Below, one piece after another: positions 3,175 through 23,591 of a stretch of DNA of 64,000 nucleotides. Source of the stretch: Sphaerimonospora thailandensis (GTDB taxonomy: Bacteria > Actinomycetota > Actinomycetes > Streptosporangiales > Streptosporangiaceae). The stretch is from positions 1-64,000 of the forward strand of contig NZ_BOOG01000039.1 in the NCBI RefSeq assembly GCF_016863115.1, written 5' to 3'. Below the pieces are notes generated by a model that had not been told where the DNA came from, did no database searches, and saw nothing but the letters and a program-made list of their open reading frames with translations. A program made the position numbers and the translations under genes. Every line of letters starts with the position of its first letter. Position 1 is the first letter of the stretch.

Positions 3175-4458
3175 CTAGGCGGACTTCTCTCTTGGAGTGC
3201 GCTGCTGCTTGGCCTGGAGCTGGTCACGCGGCACCAGGGTCGGGTTCACATGCTCCAGCACGGCTTCGCGGGTGATGACGACCCGGGCCACGTCCTGCCG
3301 GGACGGCACCTCGTACATCACGGAGAGGAGGACCTCCTCCATGATGGCGCGCAGTCCGCGGGCTCCGGTGCCGCGCAGGATGGCCTGGTCCGCGATCGCC
3401 TCAAGGGCGTCGTCGGTGAACTCCAACTCGACGTTGTCCAGTTCGAACAGGCGGCGGTACTGCTTCACGAGCGCGTTGCGCGGCTCGGTGAGGATCAGGA
3501 TCAGCGCTTCCCTGTCCAGGTTGTGCACCGACGTGATCACCGGCAGCCGGCCGACGAATTCGGGGATCATGCCGAACTTCAGCAGGTCCTCAGGCATCAC
3601 CTCCGAGAAGATGTCCGAGGCGTCGATCTCCTCCTTGGACCGGATGATCGCGTTGAAGCCGATGCCCTTCTTGCCGATCCTCGACTCGATGATCTTTTCC
3701 AGGCCGGCGAAGGCTCCGCCGCAGATGAACAACACGTTCGTGGTGTCGATCTGGATGAACTCCTGGTGCGGATGCTTGCGGCCGCCCTGGGGCGGAACGC
3801 TCGCGGTCGTCCCCTCCAGGATCTTCAGCAGGGCCTGTTGCACGCCCTCGCCGGACACATCCCGGGTGATCGACGGGTTCTCGCTCTTGCGGGCGATCTT
3901 GTCGACCTCGTCGATGTAGATGATGCCGGTCTCGGCCTTCTTGACGTCGTAGTCGGCGGCCTGGATCAGCTTGAGGAGGATGTTCTCCACGTCCTCCCCG
4001 ACGTACCCCGCCTCAGTCAGCGCGGTCGCGTCCGCGATGGCGAACGGCACATTGAGCATCTTGGCGAGGGTCTGCGCGAGCAGGGTCTTGCCGGAGCCGG
4101 TCGGGCCGAGCAGCAGGATGTTGGACTTCGCCAACTCCAGGCCGTCGTCACGGCCGCGTTCACCGGACTGGACACGCTTGTAGTGGTTGTACACGGCCAC
4201 CGACAGCGCCTTCTTCGCCTTGTCCTGGCCGATGACGTACGCGTCGAGGAACTCGAAGATCTCACGCGGCTTGGGAAGGTTGTCCCACTTGAGTTCAGAG
4301 GACTCGGAGAGCTCCTCCTCAATGATCTCGTTGCAGAGATCGATGCACTCATCGCAGATGTAGACGCCAGGTCCGGCGATGAGCTTCTTGACCTGCTTCT
4401 GGCTCTTGCCGCAGAACGAGCACTTGAGCAGGTCTCCCCCGTCGCCGATGCGTGCCAC
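3175..4458 (-). CDS. clpX: ATP-dependent Clp protease ATP-binding subunit ClpX
   Basis: AAA+ unfoldase that recognises tagged substrates and feeds them into ClpP. The N-terminal zinc-binding domain has Cys at 13, 16, 35 and 38. Walker A GPTGSGKT is at 118-125, the GYVG pore loop near 153, and Walker [10 protein letters not shown] follows. Length is 427 residues, usual for the family. The open frame extends 28 codons further upstream, but the GTG at 4458 matches the conserved start ([12 protein letters not shown]) and has AAAGGAG eight bases upstream. It lies about 190 bases after clpP2 with a potential hairpin between them, and just before valS. Confidence 0.96.
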
Positions 4459-4602
4459 CCCAGATACTCCTTTGCGTGGGACCGCCCTGCCGCCGCGGTC
4501 GCTTCCGTCCGCACTCGGTCTACTCCGGTGCGAAAACGTCATCCCGCTCAGGTTTCGACGTTACCGTCTCCTGGACCCTCAGTGAGCCCCCTGGCGGCGA
4601 GT

Positions 4603-4641
4603 CGCACCGGAACGTGCCCAATTGGGACCCGCTCCGGTGCG
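4603..4641 (-). terminator. Inverted repeat between clpP2 and clpX
   Basis: Nine-base perfect arms CGCACCGGA (4603-4611) and TCCGGTGCG (4633-4641) enclose a 21-base loop, directly after the clpP2 stop. There is no T-run, so it could be a partial terminator or a processing hairpin that sets clpX expression relative to clpP1P2. Confidence 0.4.
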
Positions 4642-4649
4642 GCAACTCC

Positions 4650-5315
4650 TCAGGAAGCAGCGATCGCCGCCGCGCGCTTCTTCCGCGACGGGATGATGTC
4701 GTCAACCAGCCCGTACGCCTTCGCCTCCTCGGCGCTGAGGATCTTGTCGCGCTCGATGTCCCTGCGGACGTCGTCGGGCGCCTTGCCCGAGTGCCGCGCG
4801 ATGATCTCCTCGAGCAGCGACCTCATACGCAGGATCTCACGAGCCTGGATCTCGATGTCACTCCCCTGGCCACCGCCTTCGGTATAGGGCTGGTGGATCA
4901 GGACGCGGGCGTTCGGGAGCGCGAAGCGCTTGCCAGGCGTGCCGCCGGCCAGCAGCACGGCCGCCGCCGAGGCCGCCTGGCCCAGGCAGACCGTCTGGAT
5001 CTCCGGGCGGACGAACTGCATGGTGTCGTAGATCGCCGTCATGGCCGTGAACGACCCGCCAGGCGAGTTGATGTACATGCTGATGTCGCGGTCCGGGTCC
5101 AGCGATTCCAGCGTCAGAAGCTGCGCCATCACGTCGTTCGCCGAGGCGTCGTCGATCTGGACACCGAGGAAGATGATGCGGTCCTCGAACAGCTTGTTGT
5201 ACGGGTTCATCTCCTTCACGCCGTACGACGTGCGCTCGACGAAGGAGGGAAGGACATAGCGGCCGTTGATATCTCCCGGCCGGATCAGCTCGCTCACTTG
5301 GAAAGCTCCAGTCAT
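4650..5315 (-). CDS. clpP2: ATP-dependent Clp protease proteolytic subunit (ClpP2)
   Basis: Serine peptidase subunit of the ClpP1P2 double ring. The catalytic triad is readable: Ser116 in GQAASAA, His141 in VLIHQP and Asp190 in ERDKIL, with the standard Ser-Asp spacing of 74. Length 221 residues. The ATG at 5315 overlaps the clpP1 stop as ATGA, implying translational coupling. A GTG six codons in (5297) has a GGAG eight bases before it and could be an alternative start near the mature N terminus. Actinobacteria normally need both subunits to form active enzyme with ClpX or ClpC1. Confidence 0.95.
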
Positions 5316-5956
5316 GAGACGGCGCCCTCGGAGGGCACCTGGCGCGCGCTGCGCACGACATGGTCGATGAAGCCGTAGTCCCTGGCCTCCTCGGCCGTGA
5401 ACCAGCGGTCGCGGTCGGAGTCACGCTCGATCTGGTCGAGCGACTGCCCCGTGTGGAAGGCGATGCGCTCAGCGAGTGTCTTCTTCACGTACAGCATCTG
5501 CTCGGCCTGAATCGCGACGTCCGCCGCGGTTCCGCCGATGCCGCCCGACGGCTGGTGCATCATGATGCGGGCGTGCGGCAGCGCGTACCGCTTCCCGGGC
5601 GCGCCCGCGCAGAGCAGGAACTGCCCCATCGAGGCGGCCAGTCCCATCGCGACCGTGCAGACGTCGTTCGGCACATACTCCATCATGTCGTAAATCGCCA
5701 TGCCGGCCGTCACCGAGCCGCCAGGGGAGTTGATGTACAGCCAGATGTCGCGATCCGGGTCATCGGCGGCGAGGAGCAGGAGTTCGGCACAGAGCCGGTT
5801 GGCCACCTCGTCGCCCACCTGGGTGCCGAGCACCACGATGCGCTCACGCAGCAGCCGCTGGTAGAGCTGGTCTTCGAGGCGGGTCGGGCCCTCCTCACGG
5901 CCCCGGGCCTCGAAACCGGAGTCTGCGGACGGGAAGAAGGTCGGCGGGCTGGTCAC
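5312..5956 (-). CDS. clpP1: ATP-dependent Clp protease proteolytic subunit (ClpP1)
   Basis: First gene of the clpP1-clpP2 pair. The triad is Ser109 (GLAASMG), His134 (IMMHQP) and Asp183 (SDRDRW). The frame is open for 24 codons upstream, but the GTG at 5956 has GGAAGG seven bases before it and gives 214 residues, a normal size with an N-terminal region that is probably processed. The upstream intergenic DNA carries a ClgR-type box and a plausible promoter. The stop overlaps the clpP2 start by four bases. Confidence 0.95.
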
Positions 5957-5997
5957 AGCGTCACCTTCCAATGCGTCGTAATCGGTTGGCTTTGCTT

Positions 5998-6058
5998 GTG
6001 ACCTTAACGCGCGCCGCCGACAGGTCATGCCTCCTCACCGTGCTGTTCGCTGTCGGCG
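5998..6058 (-). promoter_or_regulatory. clpP1P2 promoter region with ClgR-type operator
   Basis: GTTCGC-N5-GCG is present at 6045-6058, matching the ClgR operator described for the Streptomyces clpP1 operon. Between it and the clpP1 start lies TAAGGT as a -10 candidate, with a weak TGAC-containing -35 about 17 bases upstream. ClgR is the activator of clp genes in actinobacteria; its own gene is not in this window. Confidence 0.55.
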
Positions 6059-6215
6059 CAGGTTCACCCTCGCGTCGGCACGGCTCGGTGCTCCCGGCCG
6101 CCTTTCCCGTCGCCACGCGGCCACGACACGCCGTACGAAGCCCCAGCTCATCTCGGTACGGCCGAAGAGCCGTGCGACGAGAAATTTACGGGGATTTACC
6201 CGGTAATAACCGAGA

Positions 6216-6247
6216 AACCCCCGGCGCACCGAAGTGCGGCGGGGGTT
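6216..6247 (-). terminator. Terminator downstream of tig
   Basis: Hairpin with arms AACCCCCG/CGGGGGTT plus CGCAC/GTGCG, one internal mismatch and, on the minus strand, a UUCG tetraloop. It lies 70 bases past the tig stop and separates tig from the clpP1P2 operon. Confidence 0.8.
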
Positions 6248-6317
6248 TTCCCGATCAGCACGGTCGATTGACTTTCCCGAGCCCACGACCATCGAAAAAC
6301 CGGCGAGAACCGGAAAC

Positions 6318-7706
6318 TCAGCTTTCCGCGGGCTGCTCCGGCTCGCCCTCGGCCTGCTCCGCCCCGACCTGCTCCTGCTCGGGGTTGAGCTCGGCGTAGA
6401 TGGCCTTGAGGTCGACGGCGTTGCCCGCCTCGTCCTTCACGCTGGCGGCGTCGCCCACGATGGTCTTGGCCTTCTCCCGGACGATCTCCACCATGGCGAG
6501 CGGGAGTTGATTGTTGTCGGCGAGGTGCTGGGCCAGCGTGTTCGGGGCGACGCCGACCTGCATGGCCCGGCGCACCACGAAGTCGGTGAGCTCCTGCTCA
6601 CTGACCCCGATCTCCTCGGCCTTCACAATCTTGTCGAGGACGAAGCCCACCTTCAGCGCCTTAGCCGCGTTCTGCTCGTACTCGGCGAAGCGATCCTCCT
6701 CGGTCGTCTGGTGAAGACGGAAGTACGCCTCGCGGCTGAGGCCGCTCTCCGCGATCTCGTGCTCGAGGTTGTGCTTGCGCGCGTCGATCTCGGCGGTGAG
6801 CGCGCTCTCCGGGAGCGGAATGTCGATCTTCTCGAGCAGTGCGTCCAGGGCCTTCTCCCGGCTCTCCATGACCTGCTCGATCAGCTTGTTGCGGCGAATC
6901 TGGCCGCGCAGCCCGTCCTTGAGCTCGTCAAGCGTGTCGAACTCGCTGGCGAGCTGAGCGAACTCGTCATCCAGTTCGGGCAGCACCTTCTCCTTGACCG
7001 ACTTGACGTTGATGATCACGTCGGCCTCCTCGCCGGCGTTCTCGCCGCCGACAAGCGTGGTGCGGAAGGTCTTCTCTTCGTCCGCGGCCATGCCCTGGAG
7101 CGCGTCATCCAGCCCCTGGAGCACCGAGCCGGCGCCGACCTCGTAGGAGACGTCGGCGGCCTGCTGCTCGTCGAGGTTCCTGCCGTCGATCTCGGCACGC
7201 AGGTCCATCACGACGTAATCGCCGTTCTGGGCCTGGCGCTCGACGCCGGTCAGTGTGGCGAAGCGCTGGCGCAGCGCGTTGAGCTGGGTGTCGATGTCCT
7301 CGTCGGACACCTCGGACGCGCCGACGACGACCTCGAGACCCGCGTAGTCGGGCACGTCGAAAGCCGGGCGGACGTCCACCTCGGCGGTGAACTCGACCTG
7401 CTCACCGTCCTCGAGCTTGGTGACCTCGATCTCCGGCTGGCTGACCGGGAAGACGTCGGTCTCGTCGACGGCCTGGCCGTAGAGCTTGGGCAGAGCGTCG
7501 TTCAGGGTCTCCTCAAGAACCACCGCGCGGCCGAAGCGCTGCTCGATGATCCGGGCCGGCACCTTGCCGGGGCGGAACCCGGGCACGCGCACCTGCTGCG
7601 CGACCTTCTTGTACGCGGCCTGCAGGCTCGGCTCGAGCTCCTTGAACGGCACCTCGACGGTGAGCTTGACCCGGGTAGGGCTGAGCTCCTCGACAGCGGT
7701 CTTCAC
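6318..7706 (-). CDS. tig: Trigger factor, ribosome-associated chaperone
   Basis: Prolyl-isomerase chaperone that binds nascent chains at the ribosome exit tunnel. The N-terminal ribosome-binding domain has the signature GFRPGKVP near residue 45, followed by the FKBP-type domain (NGDYVVMDLRAEIDG region) and a long helical C-terminal domain ending in an acidic Glu/Gln tail. I take the GTG at 7706 (462 residues) because AAGGAG lies eight bases upstream; the open frame extends eight codons further. Its position beside clpP1P2-clpX is conserved in many bacteria. A strong terminator follows, so it is probably transcribed separately from clpP1P2. Confidence 0.95.
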   Translation of the reverse strand: MKTAVEELSPTRVKLTVEVPFKELEPSLQAAYKKVAQQVRVPGFRPGKVPARIIEQRFGRAVVLEETLNDALPKLYGQAVDETDVFPVSQPEIEVTKLEDGEQVEFTAEVDVRPAFDVPDYAGLEVVVGASEVSDEDIDTQLNALRQRFATLTGVERQAQNGDYVVMDLRAEIDGRNLDEQQAADVSYEVGAGSVLQGLDDALQGMAADEEKTFRTTLVGGENAGEEADVIINVKSVKEKVLPELDDEFAQLASEFDTLDELKDGLRGQIRRNKLIEQVMESREKALDALLEKIDIPLPESALTAEIDARKHNLEHEIAESGLSREAYFRLHQTTEEDRFAEYEQNAAKALKVGFVLDKIVKAEEIGVSEQELTDFVVRRAMQVGVAPNTLAQHLADNNQLPLAMVEIVREKAKTIVGDAASVKDEAGNAVDLKAIYAELNPEQEQVGAEQAEGEPEQPAES

Positions 7707-7916
7707 GGGGTGGTCTCCTTGATCCAGCATCTGGTGATTGCAGGCGCGTAGTGCACGACAACCGCGGCACAGTAAACGCGCGCCGCGCCCACGTGAGAGG
7801 CACAGAGACCACCGCCGCCTGGGCGCAACCGCTTAGGCATGCTCGAATGTGGCGGGTGTCCAGCGCCAAGGGCAGTCTAGAACAGACCGACGGCTCGCAG
7901 CGACAGCCACGGCCTG

Positions 7917-8780
7917 TTACAGGTCGGCGATGATTCGCTGGAGCAGGTCAACGGTCTCCGCCGGGGTAGTGCTCACAGCGCACAAACGCTCCATGACCTC
8001 GATGTAGCGATCGAGTTCTTCGCGTTTGTCCAGGTAGAGGGCGCTCGCGAGCTGCTCCACGTAAACGATGTCGGGAAGCTCCGGGTCGGCGAACCGCAGG
8101 ATGCTGAAGGCCCCACCCTCCGCCGCGTGCCCCCCGTAACTGAACGGAATGACCTGGATCGTGACGTTGGGCTGGTTCATCAGATCGATCAGGTGCTGGA
8201 TCTGGCCGCGCATCACGTCCACGCCACCGATCGGCCGCCGCAGCGCCGCCTCGTCGATCACCGCCCAGAACAACGGGCTGTCCTCGCCGTCAAGAATGCG
8301 CTGCCGTTCGAGGCGCAGGTCGACCCGCCTGGCGATCTCCTCGGGCACCGCGCCGACCGCACCCGCCGTGATGACGGCGCGGGCGTACTCCTTGGTCTGC
8401 AACAGGCCCGGGACGAACTGCACCTCGTAGGTGCGGATGCGGGTCGCCGCCTCCTCCAACCCGACGTAGGTCTGGAACCAAGCCGGGAGTACGTCACTGA
8501 ACCGGTGCCACCAGCCGGGTTCGTTGGCCCGCTCGACCAGCCCCATCACCACGGCCCGGGTCTTCTCGTCCTTCACACCGTAAAGGGTGAGCAGGTCGGC
8601 GACGTCACGTTCCTTGAAGCTGACCCGGCCCAACTCCATCCGGCTGATCTTGGATTCGGATCCGCGGATGAACCGCCCGGCCTCGTCGCGGCTGACGCCC
8701 TTGTCTTCTCTGAGCCTGCGGAGCTGGGCTCCCAGGAGAATGCGGAGAGCCGTCGGGCCCGATCCAGGTTGGATCTGCAT
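7917..8780 (-). CDS. HTH regulator with DUF5753 domain (WhiJ/Scr1-like)
   Basis: DNA-binding protein of a family greatly expanded in Streptomyces and relatives. Residues about 15-70 form an Xre-type helix-turn-helix (LGAQLRRLREDKGVSRDEAG, then ESKISRMELG). The rest matches the DUF5753 region, with the typical FVPGLLQT and VIPFSYGGH stretches. Length 287 residues. ATG at 8780 is preferred over the GTG at 8783 because GGAGG is seven bases before it. It is divergent from an anti-sigma-like ATPase gene, an arrangement seen at whiJ-like developmental loci; the usual third partner, a small DUF397 protein, is not adjacent. The shared upstream region is full of inverted repeats. Confidence 0.85.
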   Translation of the reverse strand: MQIQPGSGPTALRILLGAQLRRLREDKGVSRDEAGRFIRGSESKISRMELGRVSFKERDVADLLTLYGVKDEKTRAVVMGLVERANEPGWWHRFSDVLPAWFQTYVGLEEAATRIRTYEVQFVPGLLQTKEYARAVITAGAVGAVPEEIARRVDLRLERQRILDGEDSPLFWAVIDEAALRRPIGGVDVMRGQIQHLIDLMNQPNVTIQVIPFSYGGHAAEGGAFSILRFADPELPDIVYVEQLASALYLDKREELDRYIEVMERLCAVSTTPAETVDLLQRIIADL

Positions 8781-8953
8781 CACGACTCCTCCCTCTCGGC
8801 TCCGCCCTCTTCATGCCACCCATGCCGCCACGGGTCTCGCACGATCCCAGCCGCTCCAATGGCGCCTATCCCAGCCCACACAGTGTCACCAGTTCCGGCC
8901 CGGTTGACAAGGTCTCATCCACGTAACCCCTGCCGCACCCCGAAAGCCGACTC

Positions 8954-9060
8954 TGTGCATTTGCACACACCGTGTGCACGTGCATTTGGGGCTTGCATGG
9001 GGGCGCTGAGTGTTCCATCATGTCTTGGTGCATATTGGGTTACATGTGCACCAAGACATG
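8954..9060. promoter_or_regulatory. Operator cluster between WhiJ-like regulator and ATPase genes
   Basis: A perfect 14-base inverted repeat (CATGTCTTGGTGCA at 9019-9032 and its complement at 9047-9060, 14-base spacer) sits just before the ATPase start. Upstream lie TGTGCA-TT-TGCACA (8954-8967) and a further TGTGCACGTGCA element (8973-8984). These are likely binding sites for the adjacent regulator. The remaining bases of the 8781-9090 gap show no gene. Confidence 0.6.
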
Positions 9061-9090
9061 GAGAACGGGCCAGCGGGAGGTACGGGCAGC

Positions 9091-9570
9091 ATGTCGGAGA
9101 AGCCCGGGTCCGCCGGTTCGTTGACCCGTGACGCGGGATTCGGTTGGTTCCTCCGCACCGCCAGCGAGTCCGATACCCGCACGTGTCCTCTGCGGCCCCA
9201 GGCCGACTCCGTCGGTCGGGCACGTGAGGTCACCCGCACCACCCTGCGGCAATGGGGCCTTCCCGAACTGAGCGAGGACGCGTCTCTGGTCGTCTCCGAA
9301 CTGGTGACGAACGCCGTCCGTTACGCTCGGTATCCGGTCGGCGAATGGAGCGATCACCCGATCACACTGGTGCTGCTCCGCATCGCACCACATGTCCTGC
9401 TGGCGGTCTCCGACCCCAGCGACCGCATCCCCGCGCCGAAGGAACCCGACTTCATCTCCGAACACGGCCGCGGTCTCTACATCGTCGAGACCTACAGCCA
9501 GGCCTGGGGATGGGATCCCCTCGACCACGGCGGCAAGGCCGTGTGGGCACTTCTGCGCAGCTCCGCCTGA
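9091..9570 (+). CDS. ATP-binding protein, anti-sigma factor kinase-like (HATPase_c)
   Basis: Single-domain GHKL ATPase of the RsbW/SpoIIAB-like type, about 159 residues. The N box is VSELVTNAVRYA and the G box EHGRGLYIVE; both look intact. Such proteins either phosphorylate anti-sigma antagonists or bind partners at whiJ-like loci. ATG at 9091 has GGGAGG ten bases upstream. An in-frame ATG at 9058 would fall inside the right arm of the long inverted repeat and would suit a leaderless transcript. Divergent from the WhiJ-like regulator, and followed by a hairpin terminator. Confidence 0.8.
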   Translation: MSEKPGSAGSLTRDAGFGWFLRTASESDTRTCPLRPQADSVGRAREVTRTTLRQWGLPELSEDASLVVSELVTNAVRYARYPVGEWSDHPITLVLLRIAPHVLLAVSDPSDRIPAPKEPDFISEHGRGLYIVETYSQAWGWDPLDHGGKAVWALLRSSA

Positions 9571-9710
9571 CACCACTCCAGCCTCGGGCCCTTCACCGAT
9601 CGCCGACTTCATGACGTTCGAGAACAAGGGGCAGGACATCGCCGCAGCCGACATAAGCCTGGTCCAGGTAAACAATCGGCACCGATCTCGGCGGTTTTCG
9701 GGCGATCACG

Positions 9711-9747
9711 AAGGCCAGGCCTCCCGTGCGGGATGACCTGGCCTTTT
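9711..9747 (+). terminator. Bidirectional hairpin terminator
   Basis: AAGGCCAGG (9711-9719) pairs with CCTGGCCTT (9737-9745), followed by TT on the plus strand. It ends the ATPase transcript and, in the other direction, lies just beyond the tRNA-Gly 3' end. Confidence 0.75.
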
Positions 9748-9755
9748 GTGTTCGG

Positions 9756-9826
9756 AGCGGACGACGGGAATCGAACCCGCGTAGCCAGTTTGGAAGACTG
9801 GGGCTCTACCATTGAGCTACGTCCGC
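9756..9826 (-). tRNA. tRNA-Gly(TCC)
   Basis: Seven-base acceptor stem GCGGACG/CGTCCGC, D arm with GTAGCTCAATGGTAGAGC, anticodon loop CTTCCAA giving anticodon TCC, and T arm GGTTCGATTCC. CCA is not encoded. Divergent from tRNA-Pro; the 91-base gap must hold both promoters. Confidence 0.95.
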
Positions 9827-9917
9827 GCGCGACCGGCTGTCCATCTGGTTTAGACTTCATCCGGTCGTCAGGGCGTAAGCGTACCGGAGTCCCGGAGCGT
9901 TCGCGTACCCGGCGAGA

Positions 9918-9991
9918 CGGGGCGTGGCGCAGCTTGGTAGCGCGCTTGCTTTGGGAGCAAGAAGTCGCAGGTTCAAATCCTGTCGCCCCGA
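9918..9991 (+). tRNA. tRNA-Pro(TGG)
   Basis: Acceptor stem CGGGGCG/CGCCCCG, anticodon stem CTTGC/GCAAG with loop TTTGGGA giving anticodon TGG, T arm GGTTCAAATCC and discriminator A. CCA is not encoded. Confidence 0.95.
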
Positions 9992-10008
9992 CTGCTCTGA
10001 CCAGTCAG

Positions 10009-10036
10009 AAGGCCGCCGGAGATCGGGAGCGGCCTT
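10009..10036 (+). terminator. Terminator after tRNA-Pro
   Basis: AAGGCCGC (10009-10016) and GCGGCCTT (10029-10036) form a perfect eight-base stem 17 bases past the tRNA. Confidence 0.7.
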
Positions 10037-10088
10037 CCGCATGACTGATCGGGTGACCATCATCTCCACTGGCCTCAGGTGACAGGCC

Positions 10089-10481
10089 TCACTCGTCCAC
10101 GACGTACGGGTGCGTGAGGAACTCGAGGGCGTGACCGTCGGGATCGTCCACGTAGACCCCGCGTCCATGATGCCGGTGGTTGATCTCCTGCGGCTCCTGG
10201 TGGTGCGGGCCGCCCCAGTACGGCAGGCCGCGCTCGACGATCCGCCCGTGGATCTGGTCGAACTCCTCCTCCGAGACCAGGAACGCCAGGTGCTGCATGA
10301 TGATGTGGTCGGAATCGACGATGGAGTCCGCGTAGTCGACGGTCACGCCGTTGGCGAGCGGGACGGTCGCGAACGGTCCGAACTCCTCGGGCTCGGGCGC
10401 TCCCAGCAGGGCGGTGAGGAACCGGGCCGAGGCGAACCGGTCGGTGCTGTGCATGATCGTGTGATCCAGTTGTGCGGGCAC
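10089..10481 (-). CDS. VOC family protein (glyoxalase/bleomycin-resistance fold)
   Basis: Small protein of about 130 residues with the vicinal-oxygen-chelate pattern: an N-terminal beta-alpha unit beginning LDHTIMHS, and a C-terminal [19 protein letters not shown] stretch that matches the usual metal-binding edge. The His in LDHTI and the Glu in ALEFLT are probable metal ligands. The substrate is unknown. GTG at 10481 follows TGGAGG with only four bases spacing; the larger open frame upstream is a shadow of the divergent gene. Divergent from trpB2. Confidence 0.75.
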
Positions 10482-10567
10482 GGGACCTCCAGGCGGTCGG
10501 ATCCGGTGTGACCCTTTCCTTCCGAGGCTACAAACCGTGTTCTCGGCCCTGCCAGGCACGGGTTCGC

Positions 10568-10635
10568 ACCGATCTGGCCCGCGTCCTTCCGCGGAGCCGT
10601 GCGTACTCGCAGACTGGTGTTCACGCCAGATCGGT
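10568..10635. repeat. Widely spaced inverted repeat before trpB2
   Basis: ACCGATCTGGC (10568-10578) and GCCAGATCGGT (10625-10635) are perfect 11-base complements 46 bases apart in the divergent VOC/trpB2 promoter region. This may be a looped operator or an RNA stem in the trpB2 leader. Confidence 0.5.
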
Positions 10636-10678
10636 CGCCCGGCAGCGCCGGGAGTCATACGGGAGAGGAGTGGATGAC

Positions 10679-12040
10679 GTGGCGAACGAGCCGACAAAGG
10701 TGCTACTCGAGGAGTCACAAATCCCACGGAACTGGTACAACATTCTTCCTGACCTTCCGAAGCCTCCCCCACCGCCGCTCCACCCGGCGACCCTGCAGCC
10801 CATCGGCCCGGACGATCTGCTGCCGTTGTTCCCCGCGGACCTGATCGCGCAGGAGGTGACCCGGGACCGTCACGTCCCCATCCCGGAGGACGTCCTCGAC
10901 GTCTACCGCCTCTGGCGTCCCACCCCTCTGATCCGCGCCCGCCGACTCGAAAAGAGCCTGAGCACCCCGGCCAGGATCTACTACAAGTACGAGGGCGGCA
11001 GCCCCTCGGGATCCCACAAGCCCAACACCGCGGTCCCGCAGGCCTACTACAACGCGCGACAGGGCGTGCGCAGGCTGACCACGGAGACCGGCGCCGGCCA
11101 GTGGGGCTCGGCGCTCGCGTTCGCCTGTGCCCAGTACGGCCTGGCCTGTGAGATCTGGATGGTACGGGCCTCCTATGACCAGAAGCCCTACCGCAGGTCG
11201 CTGATGCGGGCATATGGCGGCACCGTTCATCCGAGCCCCTCAGCGGTGACGACGACGGGCAGCAGGATCCTCGCCGAAGACCCCGGCTGTCCCGGCTCTC
11301 TCGGCATCGCGATCAGCGAGGCCGTGGAGGTCGCCGGCGGCCACGACGACACCCGGTACGCACTCGGCTCCGTGCTCAACCACGTGCTCATGCATCAGAC
11401 CGTCATCGGGGAGGAGGCACTGGAGCAACTCGCCATGCTGGGTGAGACACCCGACCTGATCATCGGCTGCGCCGGTGGCGGCTCCAACTTCGCCGGCCTG
11501 GTCTTCCCGTTCCTGCGGGAGAAGCTGGCCGGGCGGATGGCCCCCGTGCTGCGCGCGGTCGAACCGGCCGCCTGCCCCTCACTGACGAGGGGCGTCTACG
11601 CGTACGACTACGGAGACAGCGCGGGGTTCACTCCGCTGCTGAAGATGCACACGCTCGGGCACACGTTCGTGCCGGACCCGATCCACGCGGGCGGCCTGCG
11701 CTATCACGGCATGGCCCCGCTGCTGTCGCACATCTACGAGCTCGGCATGGTGGAGGCGGTGGCCAAGAACCAGTCCGAGTGCTTCAAGGCCGGCCTGCGG
11801 TTCGCCCGGACCGAGGGCATCGTGCCCGCCCCCGAGCCCACGCACGCTCTCGCCGAGACGATCGCGGAGGCGCTGCGCTGCGCCGAGACGGGCGAGCCAA
11901 AGGTGATCGTGACCGCGGTGTGCGGACACGGCCATTTCGACCTGCCCGCCTACGAGGGCCACCTGGCCGGCCATCTGGAGGACGTGCCGCTCCCCCAGGA
12001 ACGGATCGACACGGCGCTCGCGCAGCTACCCGCGGCGTGA
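10679..12040 (+). CDS. trpB2: TrpB-like PLP-dependent enzyme (TrpB2)
   Basis: Stand-alone tryptophan synthase beta-chain of the TrpB2 type, 453 residues, expected to join indole and serine or a related nucleophile. The PLP lysine lies in SGSHKPNTA. The phosphate-binding [12 protein letters not shown] and the [15 protein letters not shown] stretch are intact. GTG at 10679 has GAGGAG exactly eight bases before it, so earlier in-frame starts are rejected. No trpA or other trp gene is adjacent, which fits the salvage or moonlighting role proposed for TrpB2 rather than the main biosynthetic pathway. An inverted repeat lies in its leader. Confidence 0.88.
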
Positions 12041-18156: not shown

Positions 18157-19461
18157 TCAGCCGGAGATGCGGACGGGGTTGACCAGATCGGCGTAGATCA
18201 GCAGGCCGCCCATGACGACGAGCAGCACGGCCATCACGTACGTCAGCGGCAGCGCCTTGGCGACGTCCACGTACGCGGGCATCGGCCGTCGCCGGATCCG
18301 CGCGATGCCGCGCTTGAGACCCTCCCACAGACCGCCCGCGATGTGGCCGCCGTCCAGCGGAAGCAGCGGGATCAGGTTGAACATGCCGACCGCGAGGTTG
18401 AGCCCGCCGAGCAGGGTGATGAAGATATTGATCTTGCTCTCGACGGGGATGTCCGAAGCGGCGATCTCACCGCCGATGCGGCCCGCGCCGACGATGCCGA
18501 TCGGCCCGTTGGGATCGCGCTTCTCCCCGGAGAACGCCGCCTGCCAGACGCCGACCATCTTCTTCGGAATGTTGAGCATCGCGACCGCGGTGCGTTCGGT
18601 CATGTCCCACATCTGACCCAGCACGTATCCGGGCCCCTGCCGCTCGACCACCAGCGTGGGCGACACGCCGAGGAAGCCCACGTTCTTCTCCACCTTGCCG
18701 GGATCGTCGAGCAACGGCATGTCCTGGGAGATCAGGTCGACGGTGAGGGTCATGCCCCTGCCCGCCCGGTCGATGCCGATGGTCGCGGCGCCGGCGCCGT
18801 GCGCCCGGATGAAGCGGGTGGCGTCCTCCCACGACGCGACCGGCTTTCCCGCCACCGAGGTGATCCGGTCGCCGGGCAGCAGTCCCGCCTTGGCCGCGGG
18901 TGTCGCCGGGTCGGAGTCCCGGCAGTCCCGCTTGGCTGCCTCCGCTGCGGGAATCACGCACTTGGACACCGAGGACACGGTCGGCTTGGTCACCGTCACG
19001 CCGAACCCCATCATCACGATGGCGAACAGCACGAAGGCGAGCACGAAGTTCATCGCCGGGCCGCCGAACATGACGATGACCTTCTGCCACCACGGCTTGC
19101 GGTAGAAGACACGGTTCTCGTCGCCCGGAACGATCTCCTCGGAGGCGACGGCTCGGGCGTTCTCGATCAGACCCTGCCATGGGCCGGTCGAGACGCTCCG
19201 CAGTTTGTTGGGATCGTCCGACGGCCGGGGCGGCAGCATGCCGACCATGCGGATGTAGCCCCCGAGCGGAATCCACTTGATCCCGTACTCGGTCTCACCT
19301 CGCCTTCGGGACCACATGGTGGGCCCGAAACCGACCATGTACTGGGTGACCCGGACGTTGAACAGCTTGGCCGGGACGAGATGGCCGATCTCATGCAGCC
19401 CGATGGAGAGCAGCAACCCGACGAAGATGACCACGAATCCGGCTACGGAGAGCCAGTACAT
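18157..19461 (-). CDS. rseP: RIP metalloprotease, RseP/Rip1-type site-2 protease
   Basis: Membrane zinc protease that cleaves transmembrane anti-sigma factors, 434 residues. The first helix carries HEIGH at residues 23-27. A PDZ domain is centred near residue 190 (AAKAGLLPGDRITSVAGKPV), and the second catalytic motif is LLPLDGGHIAGG. A C-terminal membrane segment (VMAVLLVVMGGLLIYADLV) follows. ATG 19461 sits directly before the first helix. Actinobacteria usually keep this gene between dxr and ispG; neither is present here. MmcQ follows at once. Confidence 0.92.
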   Translation of the reverse strand: MYWLSVAGFVVIFVGLLLSIGLHEIGHLVPAKLFNVRVTQYMVGFGPTMWSRRRGETEYGIKWIPLGGYIRMVGMLPPRPSDDPNKLRSVSTGPWQGLIENARAVASEEIVPGDENRVFYRKPWWQKVIVMFGGPAMNFVLAFVLFAIVMMGFGVTVTKPTVSSVSKCVIPAAEAAKRDCRDSDPATPAAKAGLLPGDRITSVAGKPVASWEDATRFIRAHGAGAATIGIDRAGRGMTLTVDLISQDMPLLDDPGKVEKNVGFLGVSPTLVVERQGPGYVLGQMWDMTERTAVAMLNIPKKMVGVWQAAFSGEKRDPNGPIGIVGAGRIGGEIAASDIPVESKINIFITLLGGLNLAVGMFNLIPLLPLDGGHIAGGLWEGLKRGIARIRRRPMPAYVDVAKALPLTYVMAVLLVVMGGLLIYADLVNPVRISG

Positions 19462-19662: not shown

Positions 19663-20268
19663 TTGATCCGGATCCTGGTTGCCGAGCACCTTCCGTTGGT
19701 ACGGCGCGGCCTGGTGGCCTCGCTCGACGGCGAGAGCGACCTCGCCGTGGTCGCCGACGTCGGTTCGGCGGAGGACATCGTCCCCGCCGCCCTCGACGTC
19801 CGACCCGACGCCGCGGTCATCGACGTCGACCTGCCCGGCGTGGGCGGGCTCGACATCGCCGCCCGGCTCGGCGAGAAGGTTCCCGACTGCCGGGTGCTGA
19901 TCCTTTCGGCCCAGCCCAACCCCGGCCACGTGAAGCGGGCGTTCGCCGCCGGAGTCCTCGGCTACATGAGCATCGAGATCGGGCCGGACCAACTCGCCGA
20001 CGGCATCCGCCAGATGATCTCCGGGCGCCGGGTGCTCGACACCGATCTCGCCGTCGCCGCGCTCGAGGCGGCGGAGAATCCGCTGACCCCTCGCGAGCTC
20101 GACGTGCTCCGGATCGCCGCCGGAGGCGCTCGGTCCAAGGAAATCGCCGAGCAGCTGTGTCTGTCGGTCGGCACGGTGCGCAACCACCTCTCCCGCATCC
20201 TCTACAAGACGGGCGCACGCAACCGGGTGGACGCCGTACGCATCGCCGGCGACGCCGGCTGGCTCTGA
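19663..20268 (+). CDS. NarL/LuxR-type regulator with a degenerate receiver domain
   Basis: Two-domain protein of about 201 residues. The receiver keeps the phospho-acceptor position Asp54 (VIDVDLPG), but the acidic pair after strand 1 is reduced to VAEHLP, and the conserved switch lysine is missing (GYMSIEIG instead of a GYLLK-type motif). Phosphorylation is therefore doubtful. The C terminus is a LuxR helix-turn-helix (LTPRELDVLRIAAGG, SVGTVRNHLSRI). TTG at 19663 follows GAGGGGAG. It is convergent with the LanKC-like gene, nine bases away, recalling the atypical regulator RamR beside ramC. Confidence 0.85.
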   Translation: MIRILVAEHLPLVRRGLVASLDGESDLAVVADVGSAEDIVPAALDVRPDAAVIDVDLPGVGGLDIAARLGEKVPDCRVLILSAQPNPGHVKRAFAAGVLGYMSIEIGPDQLADGIRQMISGRRVLDTDLAVAALEAAENPLTPRELDVLRIAAGGARSKEIAEQLCLSVGTVRNHLSRILYKTGARNRVDAVRIAGDAGWL

Positions 20269-20277
20269 TTCGTCGCC

Positions 20278-22293
20278 CTACCAGGACCTCTCGGACGCAG
20301 CCACGACCCGCAGGCCGGACGGCCGGCTCCTCTCCCGCCGGGCGGGCGGGGCGCCCCCCAGGAACGGCAACCCCACCGGCTCGTCGTGCAGCGCCGCACC
20401 GACCGACAGCAGAACGCCCGCCGTACCCGTGGCGAGGTCCATCGAGAGCCGCAGCAGCCGCTCGCCGGGGAACGCGAGGTGTCCTCGGAAACCGACCGCG
20501 TGCCAGGAAAGGGCGGCGAGCTGACGGCCGGTCTCCTCATCCTCACGGCCCCAGCCGCCCGCGCGGTCGCGGCACAGGTACGCGATGATCCCGGCCCGGC
20601 CGCCGAACAGCCCGGGCTGGAAGTACAGGTGCGCCCTGGCGGCCCGGTCGAGGCGCGCCCGCGCCGCCGCGAGCTCCGGATCCGGCCGGTAGTGCAGGAA
20701 CTCCCCCAGCACCCAGGCCACGCCCACGCTGCCCCGGTCGAGATGCGGCGTGGCCCTCCGGTCCCCCTCCCGACCTCCCGCATCGACCCGCAACGACCCG
20801 TCGGCCTGAGCCACGCAACGACGCAGATCTCGGCGAAGCGCCAGCTCCGCCTGAGTGAGCCACTGGACGTCCCCCGTCCGCTCGAACATCCGGACGAACA
20901 GCAGGGCCGGGCCGGTTGTTCCGTACATCAGTCCCGGGCAGCCGTCGGACGCCTCATCGTTCAACCGGTCGGCCACGATGGCGGCGGTGCGCAGCGCCCC
21001 GTCGAGATCGCCGAGATACGCCTGGCTGAGCGCGATGCCGGACAGTCCCCCGTACAGATCGACGCCGAGCGGCCGGCGGCGCCCTGTCCCGGCCATGTCG
21101 AGCACCTCCTGTGCCTCCTCGTGCCGGCCCAGGTGGGCCAGCGCGTGGGCGACACCGTGCAGCCCGTCGTAGAACCCCGGCCCGAGCCGAGGTCCGCGCC
21201 CACGGACCCGGTCGATCAGCCACTGCTCGTGCTCGGGAAACCGGCCGGCTCCGGTGGCGTGCAGGGCGTAGAGCACCCCGGCCGCGCCATGTGCCAGGCC
21301 GAGGCCGCCGCCGTCACCGTCGAACTGTGCGACGTCACCGGGGAACAGCCGGTCATCGCGGCCGGGCGTGGCCGACGCCAGGATGGCCCGCCTCATCGAG
21401 TCACGCATCCGCCGCCAGCCTGCTGTGGGCGGCTTCGTCGCAAATCTCGTGCCGCATCCGGCGATCCTCACCGCCGGGCGCAGGAAGCTCTCACGGATGG
21501 GGAACAGCTCACCGATCACTTCGGCCAGTTCCGCGGGCTTCCCCCGGTCCAAAGCGAACAGTTCGGTGAGCGGAAGGAAGAGTGCGAGCCGCAGGCAGGC
21601 CAGCGCGTACCGGTCGGCGTCGAGGCCGCCTGCTCCCGGCGGCACGATCCCCGACGGCGACGCGAACGCGGGATCGTCCTGTCCGCTCCCGGCCGACTCC
21701 GTGATGGGCCGGGCCGCCCCGAAGCCGACCAGCGTGACGCCACCGTCCGGCCGGACGATGACGTCCGCCGGGCTCAGCCCGCCGTGCACCAACTCGTGCG
21801 CATGAACCTTCCCGACGACGTCCTCGACCTTCGCGCAAACAGCCGTCGCCCACTCCACGTACTCCGCCAGACGGCCCTCTGCGTCCCTCTCAGAGTCGCT
21901 CGTCCCCGCGGCGGTCAGTGGATGGCGCGCGGCGAGAGCCGCGCCCAGCGACTCTCCTGGGACGTGTTCCAGCACGAGGAACCGGCGTCCGCCGGCGGAC
22001 AGGCGCCCCTTCAGCTCTGGGGCCACGCCCAGCCCGGCGAGCCGTGCGAGCGCCTCGCCCTCGCGCTCCCGCCCGACCTCCTTCAACACCATCCGCTCCC
22101 CCGTGTCCGGGTGGACGGCCAGGTAGACGCCTCCGCCGTCACTCTCGCGCAGCACCGCGTCGATTCGGTACGGCAGGCCTTCCGGCGGCCTGCTCCCTGA
22201 CCGCGGACAAGAGGTCAGGCGGGGAGGACATGGCGTAGGAGAGTCGTAGAAGACGGGATCTGTACGGCAGTAGAGCTCGTATCGGTTCTCCAC
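20278..22293 (-). CDS. LanKC-like protein (RamC type) lacking the lyase domain, with a pseudokinase
   Basis: 671 residues against about 850-900 for class III lanthipeptide synthetases. Residues 1-20 (MENRYELYC, FYDSPTP) match the LanKC N terminus, but the following ~170-residue lyase domain is missing. The kinase-like domain begins at once (PYRIDAVLRESDGGGVYLA). Lys71 is kept. The HRD-type Asp is Gly172 (HGGLSP), the metal-binding Asn is Asp177, and the DFG-type Asp is Gly190 (LVGFG), so phosphotransfer is unlikely. Residues about 330-645 form a LanC-like cyclase barrel (YDGLHGVAHALAHLG, LYGGLSGIALSQ, LFGGRAGIIAYL) without the Cys-Cys-His zinc site, as in class III. GTG 22293 has GGGAGG seven bases upstream. 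Preceded by a small peptide ORF. Confidence 0.8.
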   Translation of the reverse strand: MENRYELYCRTDPVFYDSPTPCPPRLTSCPRSGSRPPEGLPYRIDAVLRESDGGGVYLAVHPDTGERMVLKEVGREREGEALARLAGLGVAPELKGRLSAGGRRFLVLEHVPGESLGAALAARHPLTAAGTSDSERDAEGRLAEYVEWATAVCAKVEDVVGKVHAHELVHGGLSPADVIVRPDGGVTLVGFGAARPITESAGSGQDDPAFASPSGIVPPGAGGLDADRYALACLRLALFLPLTELFALDRGKPAELAEVIGELFPIRESFLRPAVRIAGCGTRFATKPPTAGWRRMRDSMRRAILASATPGRDDRLFPGDVAQFDGDGGGLGLAHGAAGVLYALHATGAGRFPEHEQWLIDRVRGRGPRLGPGFYDGLHGVAHALAHLGRHEEAQEVLDMAGTGRRRPLGVDLYGGLSGIALSQAYLGDLDGALRTAAIVADRLNDEASDGCPGLMYGTTGPALLFVRMFERTGDVQWLTQAELALRRDLRRCVAQADGSLRVDAGGREGDRRATPHLDRGSVGVAWVLGEFLHYRPDPELAAARARLDRAARAHLYFQPGLFGGRAGIIAYLCRDRAGGWGREDEETGRQLAALSWHAVGFRGHLAFPGERLLRLSMDLATGTAGVLLSVGAALHDEPVGLPFLGGAPPARRERSRPSGLRVVAASERSW

Positions 22294-22339
22294 GTTCTCG
22301 CCTCCCGGACGCCTGCGAAAGCCTTACTCCGCGAGGATG

Positions 22340-22423
22340 TCAAGCAGGCGCGCCCGGGACCAGTGACCATTGGACACGGAAAGAACATGACTCGCTACAG
22401 TGAGTGTCCATTGAACTCGTCAT
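22340..22423 (-). CDS. 27-residue peptide ORF upstream of the LanKC-like gene
   Basis: Encodes MTSSMDTHCSESCSF followed by RVQWSLVPGAPA. The ribosome site GGAGGAG four bases before the ATG is among the strongest in the region. It lies 46 bases before the LanKC-like start and 55 after the phosphatase stop, all on one strand. Ser, Thr and two Cys in the first half would suit a lanthipeptide precursor, but the usual class III leader motif (ILDLQ-like) is absent. It may instead be a regulatory leader peptide. Too short for routine gene calling. Confidence 0.5.
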   Translation of the reverse strand: MTSSMDTHCSESCSFRVQWSLVPGAPA

Positions 22424-22478
22424 GGGTCTCCTCCGGACCGGTAGGGGCTCCGGCATACGGGGAGATTCGCCGGAAGAA

Positions 22479-23591
22479 TTACGGGCGCCAGATCAGCACG
22501 AGAGCGCAGTCGTCGTTGTGGCCGGAGGTCATCGACTGCACCAGATGCCGCGCGCGGTCGCGGAACCCCGAGGGCAGCAGCCGCTCGGCCTCGCCCAGCA
22601 GCCGGTCCAGCCCGGAGTCGATGTCCCGGCCCGGCTGCTCGATGAGCCCGTCGGTGAACAGCATGAGGGCGTCCCCCTTGCGCAACACCCCGCTGTCGGG
22701 CTCGCAGTGCAGGTCGGGGACGACGCCGAGCACGACGCCCTTGGCCGTCGACACCCGCCAGGTGCCCGATCCCGAGTCGAACTTCACCACCGGCGGATGG
22801 CCCGCCGAGGTGATCGTGTATCCGCCGGTGGACAGGTCCAGCGTGAGGTGGACGGCGGTGACGAATCCCTCATCCCCGAGCTGGCGGTGCAGGTAGGTGT
22901 TGCAGGCGCCCAGGAAGTCGTCGACCGAACCGAGCAGGCCGCCGAAGGCGCCGGAGAGCATGAGCGCACGCGTTCCCGCGTCCACACCCTTGCCGGAGAC
23001 GTCGACGAGCGCCATCTCGACGCGATCGCCGTCACGGGTGGAGACGATGAAGTCTCCGCCGAAGGACGACCCGCCGGCCTGCTTGAGCACCACCTTGCCG
23101 TCCCAGTCCTTGGGCAGCGACGGCAGGTCGCTCTGCCGCTTGAGCCGGTCGCGCAGCTCCAGCAGCATGGCGTCGCCACGCAGCCCCTGCACGCCGAGCT
23201 TGCCGCGGGTGCGGGCCATCAGCCAGGCCAGCACGGCCGTGAAACCCATCGTGATCAGCAGGCCCGCGCCCACGTTCCCCGGTCCCCGGACCGACCATAC
23301 GTAGGCCAGGGAGACGACGACGGAGCACAGCAGGATGGCCAGGCTGCGCAGCCGCAGTTGGAGGCCGCCGATGAGCGTGATCAGGATGAGCAGCGACGGG
23401 GAGAACCAGTAGGAGGAGACCTCGGCGTCGAGCACGCCGATGACCAGGGTGATCGCGCTCAGGGCGATGAGTAGGTTCCGGTCCTTGGACGAACTCTTCC
23501 TGACAAAACGGACCAACGGCACCAAGAGCGGCACTCGTACGAGAAGTGCGCGAAGCCGCGGAGGGATCAGCGGCGCCGGTCGGGAACTCAT
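22479..23591 (-). CDS. Membrane-anchored PP2C-family serine/threonine phosphatase
   Basis: 370 residues. A basic N terminus is followed by about four membrane segments between residues 38 and 135 (LLIALSAITLVIGVL, LLILITLIGGL, LAILLCSVVVSLAYVW, GAGLLITMGFTAVLAWLM). The SpoIIE-type phosphatase domain covers about 160-368, with GGDFIVS, LVDVSGKGV, MLFTDGLIE and HNDDCALVLI. The metal-binding aspartates are present. ATG 23591 follows GAGG. It lies upstream of the 27-residue peptide ORF and the LanKC-like gene on the same strand, so one transcript is likely. Divergent from the Eis-type gene. Confidence 0.88.
   Translation of the reverse strand: MSSRPAPLIPPRLRALLVRVPLLVPLVRFVRKSSSKDRNLLIALSAITLVIGVLDAEVSSYWFSPSLLILITLIGGLQLRLRSLAILLCSVVVSLAYVWSVRGPGNVGAGLLITMGFTAVLAWLMARTRGKLGVQGLRGDAMLLELRDRLKRQSDLPSLPKDWDGKVVLKQAGGSSFGGDFIVSTRDGDRVEMALVDVSGKGVDAGTRALMLSGAFGGLLGSVDDFLGACNTYLHRQLGDEGFVTAVHLTLDLSTGGYTITSAGHPPVVKFDSGSGTWRVSTAKGVVLGVVPDLHCEPDSGVLRKGDALMLFTDGLIEQPGRDIDSGLDRLLGEAERLLPSGFRDRARHLVQSMTSGHNDDCALVLIWRP

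Follow-up and report, generated by a model that had tools for sequence, protein, structure and literature searches.

A lyase-less LanKC-like protein with a pseudokinase domain at a dismantled ram-type locus of Sphaerimonospora thailandensis

The window analyzed here, a stretch of 64,000 nucleotides (nt) of the Sphaerimonospora thailandensis genome (contig NZ_BOOG01000039.1, positions 1 to 64,000), carries a gene whose product resembles the class III lanthipeptide synthetases (LanKC) and which lies between the genes of a NarL-type regulator and a membrane phosphatase (Table 1). The initial annotation had described the product as a 671-residue protein that keeps the N-terminal tag and the class III cyclase of a LanKC without its lyase domain, encoded in an intact frame behind a strong ribosome-binding site. 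Alignment and profile match confirmed this make-up, and the frame is indeed open over all of its 671 codons, with a GGGAGG motif at the expected place. In most relatives, a purine-rich stretch is found at the same place; the exceptions are two Nonomuraea loci (L078 and L116).

Table 1. Features at the LanKC site of the window
Feature	Position	Strand	Remarks
RseP-type site-2 protease, other flank of the syntenic site	18157..19455	-	on the far side in 73/73 fetched loci
NarL-type response regulator, TTG start, convergent with LanKC, in the place of RamR in the ram operon	19663..20268	+
Lyase-less, kinase-dead LanKC-like protein (predicted), 671 amino acids, GTG start	20278..22293	-	open frame; NCBIfam lanthi_synth_III from position 214; ThurKC fold match
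Residues 1-19, N-terminal tag (N-helix of ThurKC), kept	22237..22293	-	alignment A1; dN/dS of the pair
Residues 20-40, linker spanning the excised lyase domain	22174..22236	-	gap over the lyase columns, alignment A1
Residues 40-282, pseudokinase domain (predicted); Gly172/Asp177/Gly190 for Asp/Asn/Asp; Lys71 and Glu78 kept	21448..22176	-	alignment; CurKC kinase match
Residues 293-646, class III LanC-like cyclase domain	20356..21417	-	PF05147; retention of conserved sites
GGGAGG, likely ribosome-binding site	22301..22306	-	7 nt upstream of GTG; read from sequence
27-codon open reading frame (ORF) of the initial annotation	22340..22423	-	unsupported as a gene
Upstream block between PP2C and LanKC, overlapped by the peptide ORF	22360..22406	-	16 regions aligned
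SpoIIE-type membrane phosphatase (PP2C), PF07228	22479..23591	-	core flanking gene, outside the system

The NCBIfam profile of class III LanKCs matched residues 34 to 631 with 533.4 bits, which is below the equivalog cut-off of 575 expected of an active synthetase. Since the match covers the profile only from position 214 onward (to position 832 of 833), the protein is without a lyase domain. The cyclase family PF05147 was found with 28.4 bits (cut-off, 23.2 bits; best stretch, residues 408 to 495), Pfam Pkinase stayed below its cut-off (15.8 versus 31.7 bits), and the kinase domain of CurKC matched with 44% identity. The three replacements in the kinase domain that had been noted before were borne out when the protein was aligned with intact LanKCs: Gly172 stands in place of the catalytic Asp, Asp177 in that of the metal-binding Asn, and Gly190 in that of the Asp of the DFE motif. 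The Lys of strand beta3 (K71) and the Glu of helix alphaC (E78) are retained, and this pair is kept in all 16 LanKC proteins of the locus. With a kinase fold, the Lys present and both Asp gone, the protein fits the definition of a pseudokinase, as judged from sequence and model, and would be without kinase activity.

In the AlphaFold2 model, the protein is predicted to fold well, with a mean predicted local distance difference test score (pLDDT) of 85.6 and a predicted template modeling score (pTM) of 0.88; this model was built from 64 sequences and replaced a poor one from 16 sequences (pLDDT, 64.6). Its superposition on ThurKC spans 594 residues (Z, 39.7; root mean square deviation, 3.2). 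Kinase, LanC-like cyclase, tag and their arrangement are common to the window protein and the class III LanKCs ThurKC and CurKC (RamC was compared by name only), but the window protein lacks the lyase, the kinase Asp, the Asn, the Asp of DFE and an adjacent precursor gene. The eukaryotic proteins LanCL1 and LanCL2 are fold matches as well (Z, about 28). These zinc proteins have no kinase domain, and their cyclase-type toroid serves outside lanthipeptide synthesis, whereas the window protein has a cyclase of the class III type fused to a pseudokinase.

The gene order PP2C, LanKC, NarL-type regulator and RseP, the last being a name that we take from presumed homology, is kept in relatives. A total of 73 loci were fetched, 13 by LanKC matches and 60 from the listed PP2C matches, with the nearest genera first; the site carries a LanKC in 15 of them, the regulator alone in 36 and neither in 22, counts that should not be taken as representative of the family as a whole. 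In two Sinosporangium genomes, the same site reads PP2C, LanKC, LanA (the precursor; leader, MALLDLQGME), two ATP-binding cassette (ABC) exporters, NarL and RseP, and all checked catalytic residues of the LanKC are present. There is no ABC exporter between PP2C and RseP in the window, as the initial annotation had stated, or in the genus-mate Sphaerimonospora mesophila, and the window genome shares a site without LanA and ABC genes with 11 others. At two loci of the genus Nonomuraea (G228 and G217), the LanKC is intact and a precursor is present, with no exporters at the site; the LanKC of G217 (L126) carries a long, Gly-rich, low-complexity in-frame insert in its cyclase, with the checked residues intact. 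The precursor sits downstream of the LanKC in intact loci; in the window, an LDLQ-type LanA was sought beside the LanKC, and none was found in the 9-base gap to the NarL gene. The distance from LanKC stop to regulator start, estimated from match ends, is about 9 bases in G105 and about 75 bases in G238. In the whole genome, the pattern of LDLQ-type leaders matched twice on contig C19, beside another LanKC, and once on C2.

LanKC, LanA, two ABC proteins and a NarL-type regulator make up the SapB gene set of Streptomyces, according to the accessible part of PMC4255298. The intact Sinosporangium locus has the same gene set as the ram/amf locus (ramCSABR; SapB, AmfS), and the echo of such loci that the initial annotation had perceived is well founded. 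The window has only the LanKC remnant and the regulator of this set, and since ramR itself is found only in streptomycetes, as far as the accessible text of the same paper goes (PMC4255298), the window regulator is RamR-like by position only. Gene content and order indicate that the ancestor of the locus was a ram/amf-type operon, which was dismantled in place.

Of the 16 LanKCs at the locus, the window protein included, all four with an adjacent LanA keep every checked lyase and kinase residue, and all 12 without one have lost kinase residues, lyase residues or both. An LDLQ-type LanA lies downstream of 4/4 intact versus 0/12 damaged LanKCs, the latter coming from related genomes and not representing independent events. 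Sphaerimonospora, Microbispora and Planotetraspora sp. A-T 1434 lack the catalytic Asp; Sphaerimonospora, the five genomes of genus g23 and Nonomuraea dietziae lack the Asp of DFE. Several lyase residues have gone from two genomes of the genus Nonomuraea and from all but one of the g23 genomes, the remaining one having lost a single lyase residue. Lyase residues are lost at loci L078 (G178) and L116 (N. dietziae), and G178 keeps all checked kinase residues, which is the reverse of the order of decay in the window lineage. As a control, GTDB genomes were scanned: 74 of the best 80 relatives (of 424 confirmed) have all 14 checked residues, and the six exceptions are all at this locus. Positions of ThurKC were transferred by a HMMER alignment, and the numbering of the kinase residues N369 and D382 is our own reading and not that of PMC10604976.

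The orthologue of S. mesophila is 81% identical, has the same junction of tag and kinase and shares both Gly residues at the sites of the catalytic Asp and the DFE Asp, but retains the metal-binding Asn. A third lyase-less LanKC is found in Microbispora oryzae, whose sister in the tree, Microbispora corallina, has the lyase. The tree (20 rows with five outgroups, two of them long-branched; G217 was omitted because of the insert in its cyclase) has starred branches that force two separate lyase losses, one in Sphaerimonospora and one in M. oryzae. Both excisions begin just past the N-terminal tag and end at the linker that precedes the kinase, near the domain borders that the accessible part of PMC10604976 gives for ThurKC (N-helix, 4 to 21; lyase, 29 to 213; kinase, from 233). 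Orthologues with a full lyase domain, which the initial annotation would have taken as a sign of a pseudogene or an assembly error, do exist (e.g., in M. corallina), yet both members of the genus share the deletion, and a further one arose separately in M. oryzae.

Compared with the orthologue of the genus-mate, the window protein has a ratio of nonsynonymous to synonymous substitution rates (dN/dS) of 0.28 for the whole gene, 0.30 for the kinase and 0.23 for the cyclase; the value for the tag, 0.05, comes from only 18 codons. The sole intact pair, that of Sinosporangium, gave 0.285. In 300 runs of a neutral simulation with substitution frequencies taken from four-fold sites, dN/dS averaged 1.39 and never fell below 1.08. 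Rows of fewer than 100 codons for neighboring genes (some NarL and GNAT pairs, with errors in frame extraction) were excluded. Furthermore, among the sites with a conservation of 95% or more in 78 intact rows, the window protein keeps 76/79 in the cyclase, 32/41 in the kinase and 7/11 in tag and linker; the 78 rows include one second copy each for Sinosporangium siamense, S. album and Nonomuraea typhae. Among the kinase sites lost are residues of the catalytic loop and DFE and the Phe that contacts the leader (F236 of ThurKC). The open frame and the departure from neutral evolution indicate that the remnant is under purifying selection and is not a pseudogene.

Kinase chemistry depends on the two kinase Asp residues, and since these and the lyase are gone, dehydration of Ser/Thr is not expected of the window protein. 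In ThurKC, alanine variants of the checked lyase residues abolish or impair dehydration, according to the accessible text of PMC10604976. The remaining core consists of the N-terminal tag, a pseudokinase with the Lys-Glu pair but minus two Asp, and an almost unchanged cyclase domain. From the purifying selection on this core we infer that its action lies in binding or in the LanC-like cyclase half, and not in phosphorylation and elimination; a role as LanC-like scaffold or of the cyclase type would be most likely. We consider it probable that a ram-type class III lanthipeptide operon was dismantled in place and left the window protein as its surviving LanKC, catalytically disarmed after loss of the precursor, and that selection has kept this protein as a kinase-cyclase scaffold or LanC-like protein. 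The initial annotation had suggested a repurposed scaffold and not fresh decay; the deletion common to the genus-mate and the purifying selection agree with the latter half of this statement, and the scaffold is only possible. As read from the states in relatives, the exporters would have been lost before the precursor gene, and the kinase chemistry would then have been lost by different substitutions in each lineage. Loss of the lyase domain, which would be without substrate after the death of the kinase, would have been the last step in Sphaerimonospora and M. oryzae. In the two Nonomuraea genomes, the lyase residues may have been lost first.

Several observations weigh against a selected remnant. 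The N-terminal tag is the low-confidence part of the model, and the best-80 control is not a census, with at least four known damaged proteins (of G023, G238, G239 and G240) lying outside the set. Whole-gene dN/dS in eight damaged pairs ranged from 0.20 to 0.39, and by domain from 0.12 to 0.48 in the cyclase and from 0.22 to 0.50 in the kinase, some of these being looser than in the intact pair, although the damaged pairs have genomes in common, are not independent of one another and can be compared with only one intact pair; constraint is therefore weaker in some lineages. The LanKC is absent from the site in 13 of the 15 genomes of genus g71 (Microbispora), as expected if it is dispensable there. 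Moreover, 12% of the neutral runs were free of stop codons, so the open frame alone proves little. Together with catalytic lesions that differ between lineages, these values would fit the slow decay of a gene that is dispensable and without function but has yet to acquire a stop codon. We regard such decay as quite unlikely for the window protein, whose dN/dS of 0.28 is to be compared with at least 1.08 under neutrality; in addition, open frames are kept in both Sphaerimonospora genomes and in 6/6 genomes of g23 and g68 (named records are Planotetraspora). That an error of sequencing or assembly fused the tag to the kinase domain is extremely improbable; the source is a draft genome of 166 contigs, but the identical junction in the second Sphaerimonospora species led us to reject this explanation, and the loss in M. 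oryzae is a separate one.

The window genome has a second, complete class III cluster (L146; G000:C19:92000-107000, about 3279 to 10924) with a LanKC (950-codon frame), two near-identical precursors, both with MALLDLQTLE leaders, two ABC exporters and a NarL-type regulator; similar clusters are present in G001, G115 and G241 (L148 to L150). The disarmed LanKC could lend its cyclase to this cluster in trans or form a complex with it. A second LanKC with an adjacent LDLQ-type LanA occurs in 9 of the 12 genomes whose LanKC at the site is damaged, and separate lyase-kinase and cyclase polypeptides of ThurKC jointly modified a substrate in vitro, according to the accessible part of PMC10604976. However, no such cluster was found at the search thresholds in G105 (Planotetraspora sp. 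A-T 1434), G178 and G211 (N. dietziae), and the second LanKC comes with a cyclase of its own. None of the 12 damaged proteins retains the leader-contact Phe, which makes binding of a LanA-type leader doubtful and also counts against the selected remnant; the lyase half of the leader groove is absent from the window protein. Help in trans is an attractive but less likely explanation. A disarmed LanKC might also be a partner of the convergently encoded NarL-type regulator, perhaps as a sensor or a sequestering protein: the regulator is present at 15/15 fetched LanKC loci and in the window, and LanKC and regulator are the sole leftovers of the operon in the window lineage. This partnership seems unlikely, since the regulator survives alone at 36 of the 73 fetched loci and the LanKC is thus not needed by it.

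As for the neighboring genes, the NarL-type regulator seems to lack the usual receiver residues, with AEH where DDH is common. Its presence without a LanKC at those 36 loci raises the possibility that it has outlived the operon many times. The initial annotation had counted the regulator, a peptide ORF and the PP2C phosphatase as the neighborhood of the LanKC; the regulator and phosphatase genes are present, but the peptide ORF is not supported as a gene. The phosphatase does not belong to the system either, since it counts among the core genes of the family (336/341 genomes) and flanks the site with or without a LanKC. The frame of the 27-residue peptide extends to 38 codons from an upstream ATG and is open in the genus-mate. 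The 22 base differences from the genus-mate are spread 8:7:7 over the codon positions, with 11 codons changed nonsynonymously and 2 synonymously, and so there is no sign of coding. No counterpart was found in the 14 other upstream regions of the locus. With no excess at third positions and a frame shared with the genus-mate only, the peptide was rejected as a gene and as a part of the system. The upstream block which it overlaps carries GTCACTGG in the window and is partly conserved over 16 upstream regions, intact loci included, as judged by eye without a significance test. This block may be a promoter or a binding site for the adjacent regulator.

A broader reading, which we put forward tentatively and hold to be possible but somewhat less than even, is that lanthipeptide synthetases founded a lineage of pseudoenzymes: after loss of the precursor gene, kinase and lyase were shed more than once, and the core of tag, pseudokinase and cyclase was kept for a new function other than lanthipeptide synthesis, as a bacterial counterpart of the eukaryotic LanC-like proteins. 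In the open-access literature searched, outside which most subscription papers lie, no paper was found that links LanKC with pseudokinase, lanthionine synthetase with pseudoenzyme, or Sphaerimonospora with lanthipeptide. For genome mining, it follows that class III cluster calls made from a LanKC match can pick up disarmed proteins. One chromosomal site shows the dismantling of a biosynthetic operon in several graded steps, during which the core of an enzyme seems to outlive its own chemistry under selection, and this opens to test the roles that LanC-type folds may have in bacteria beyond the making of lanthipeptides.

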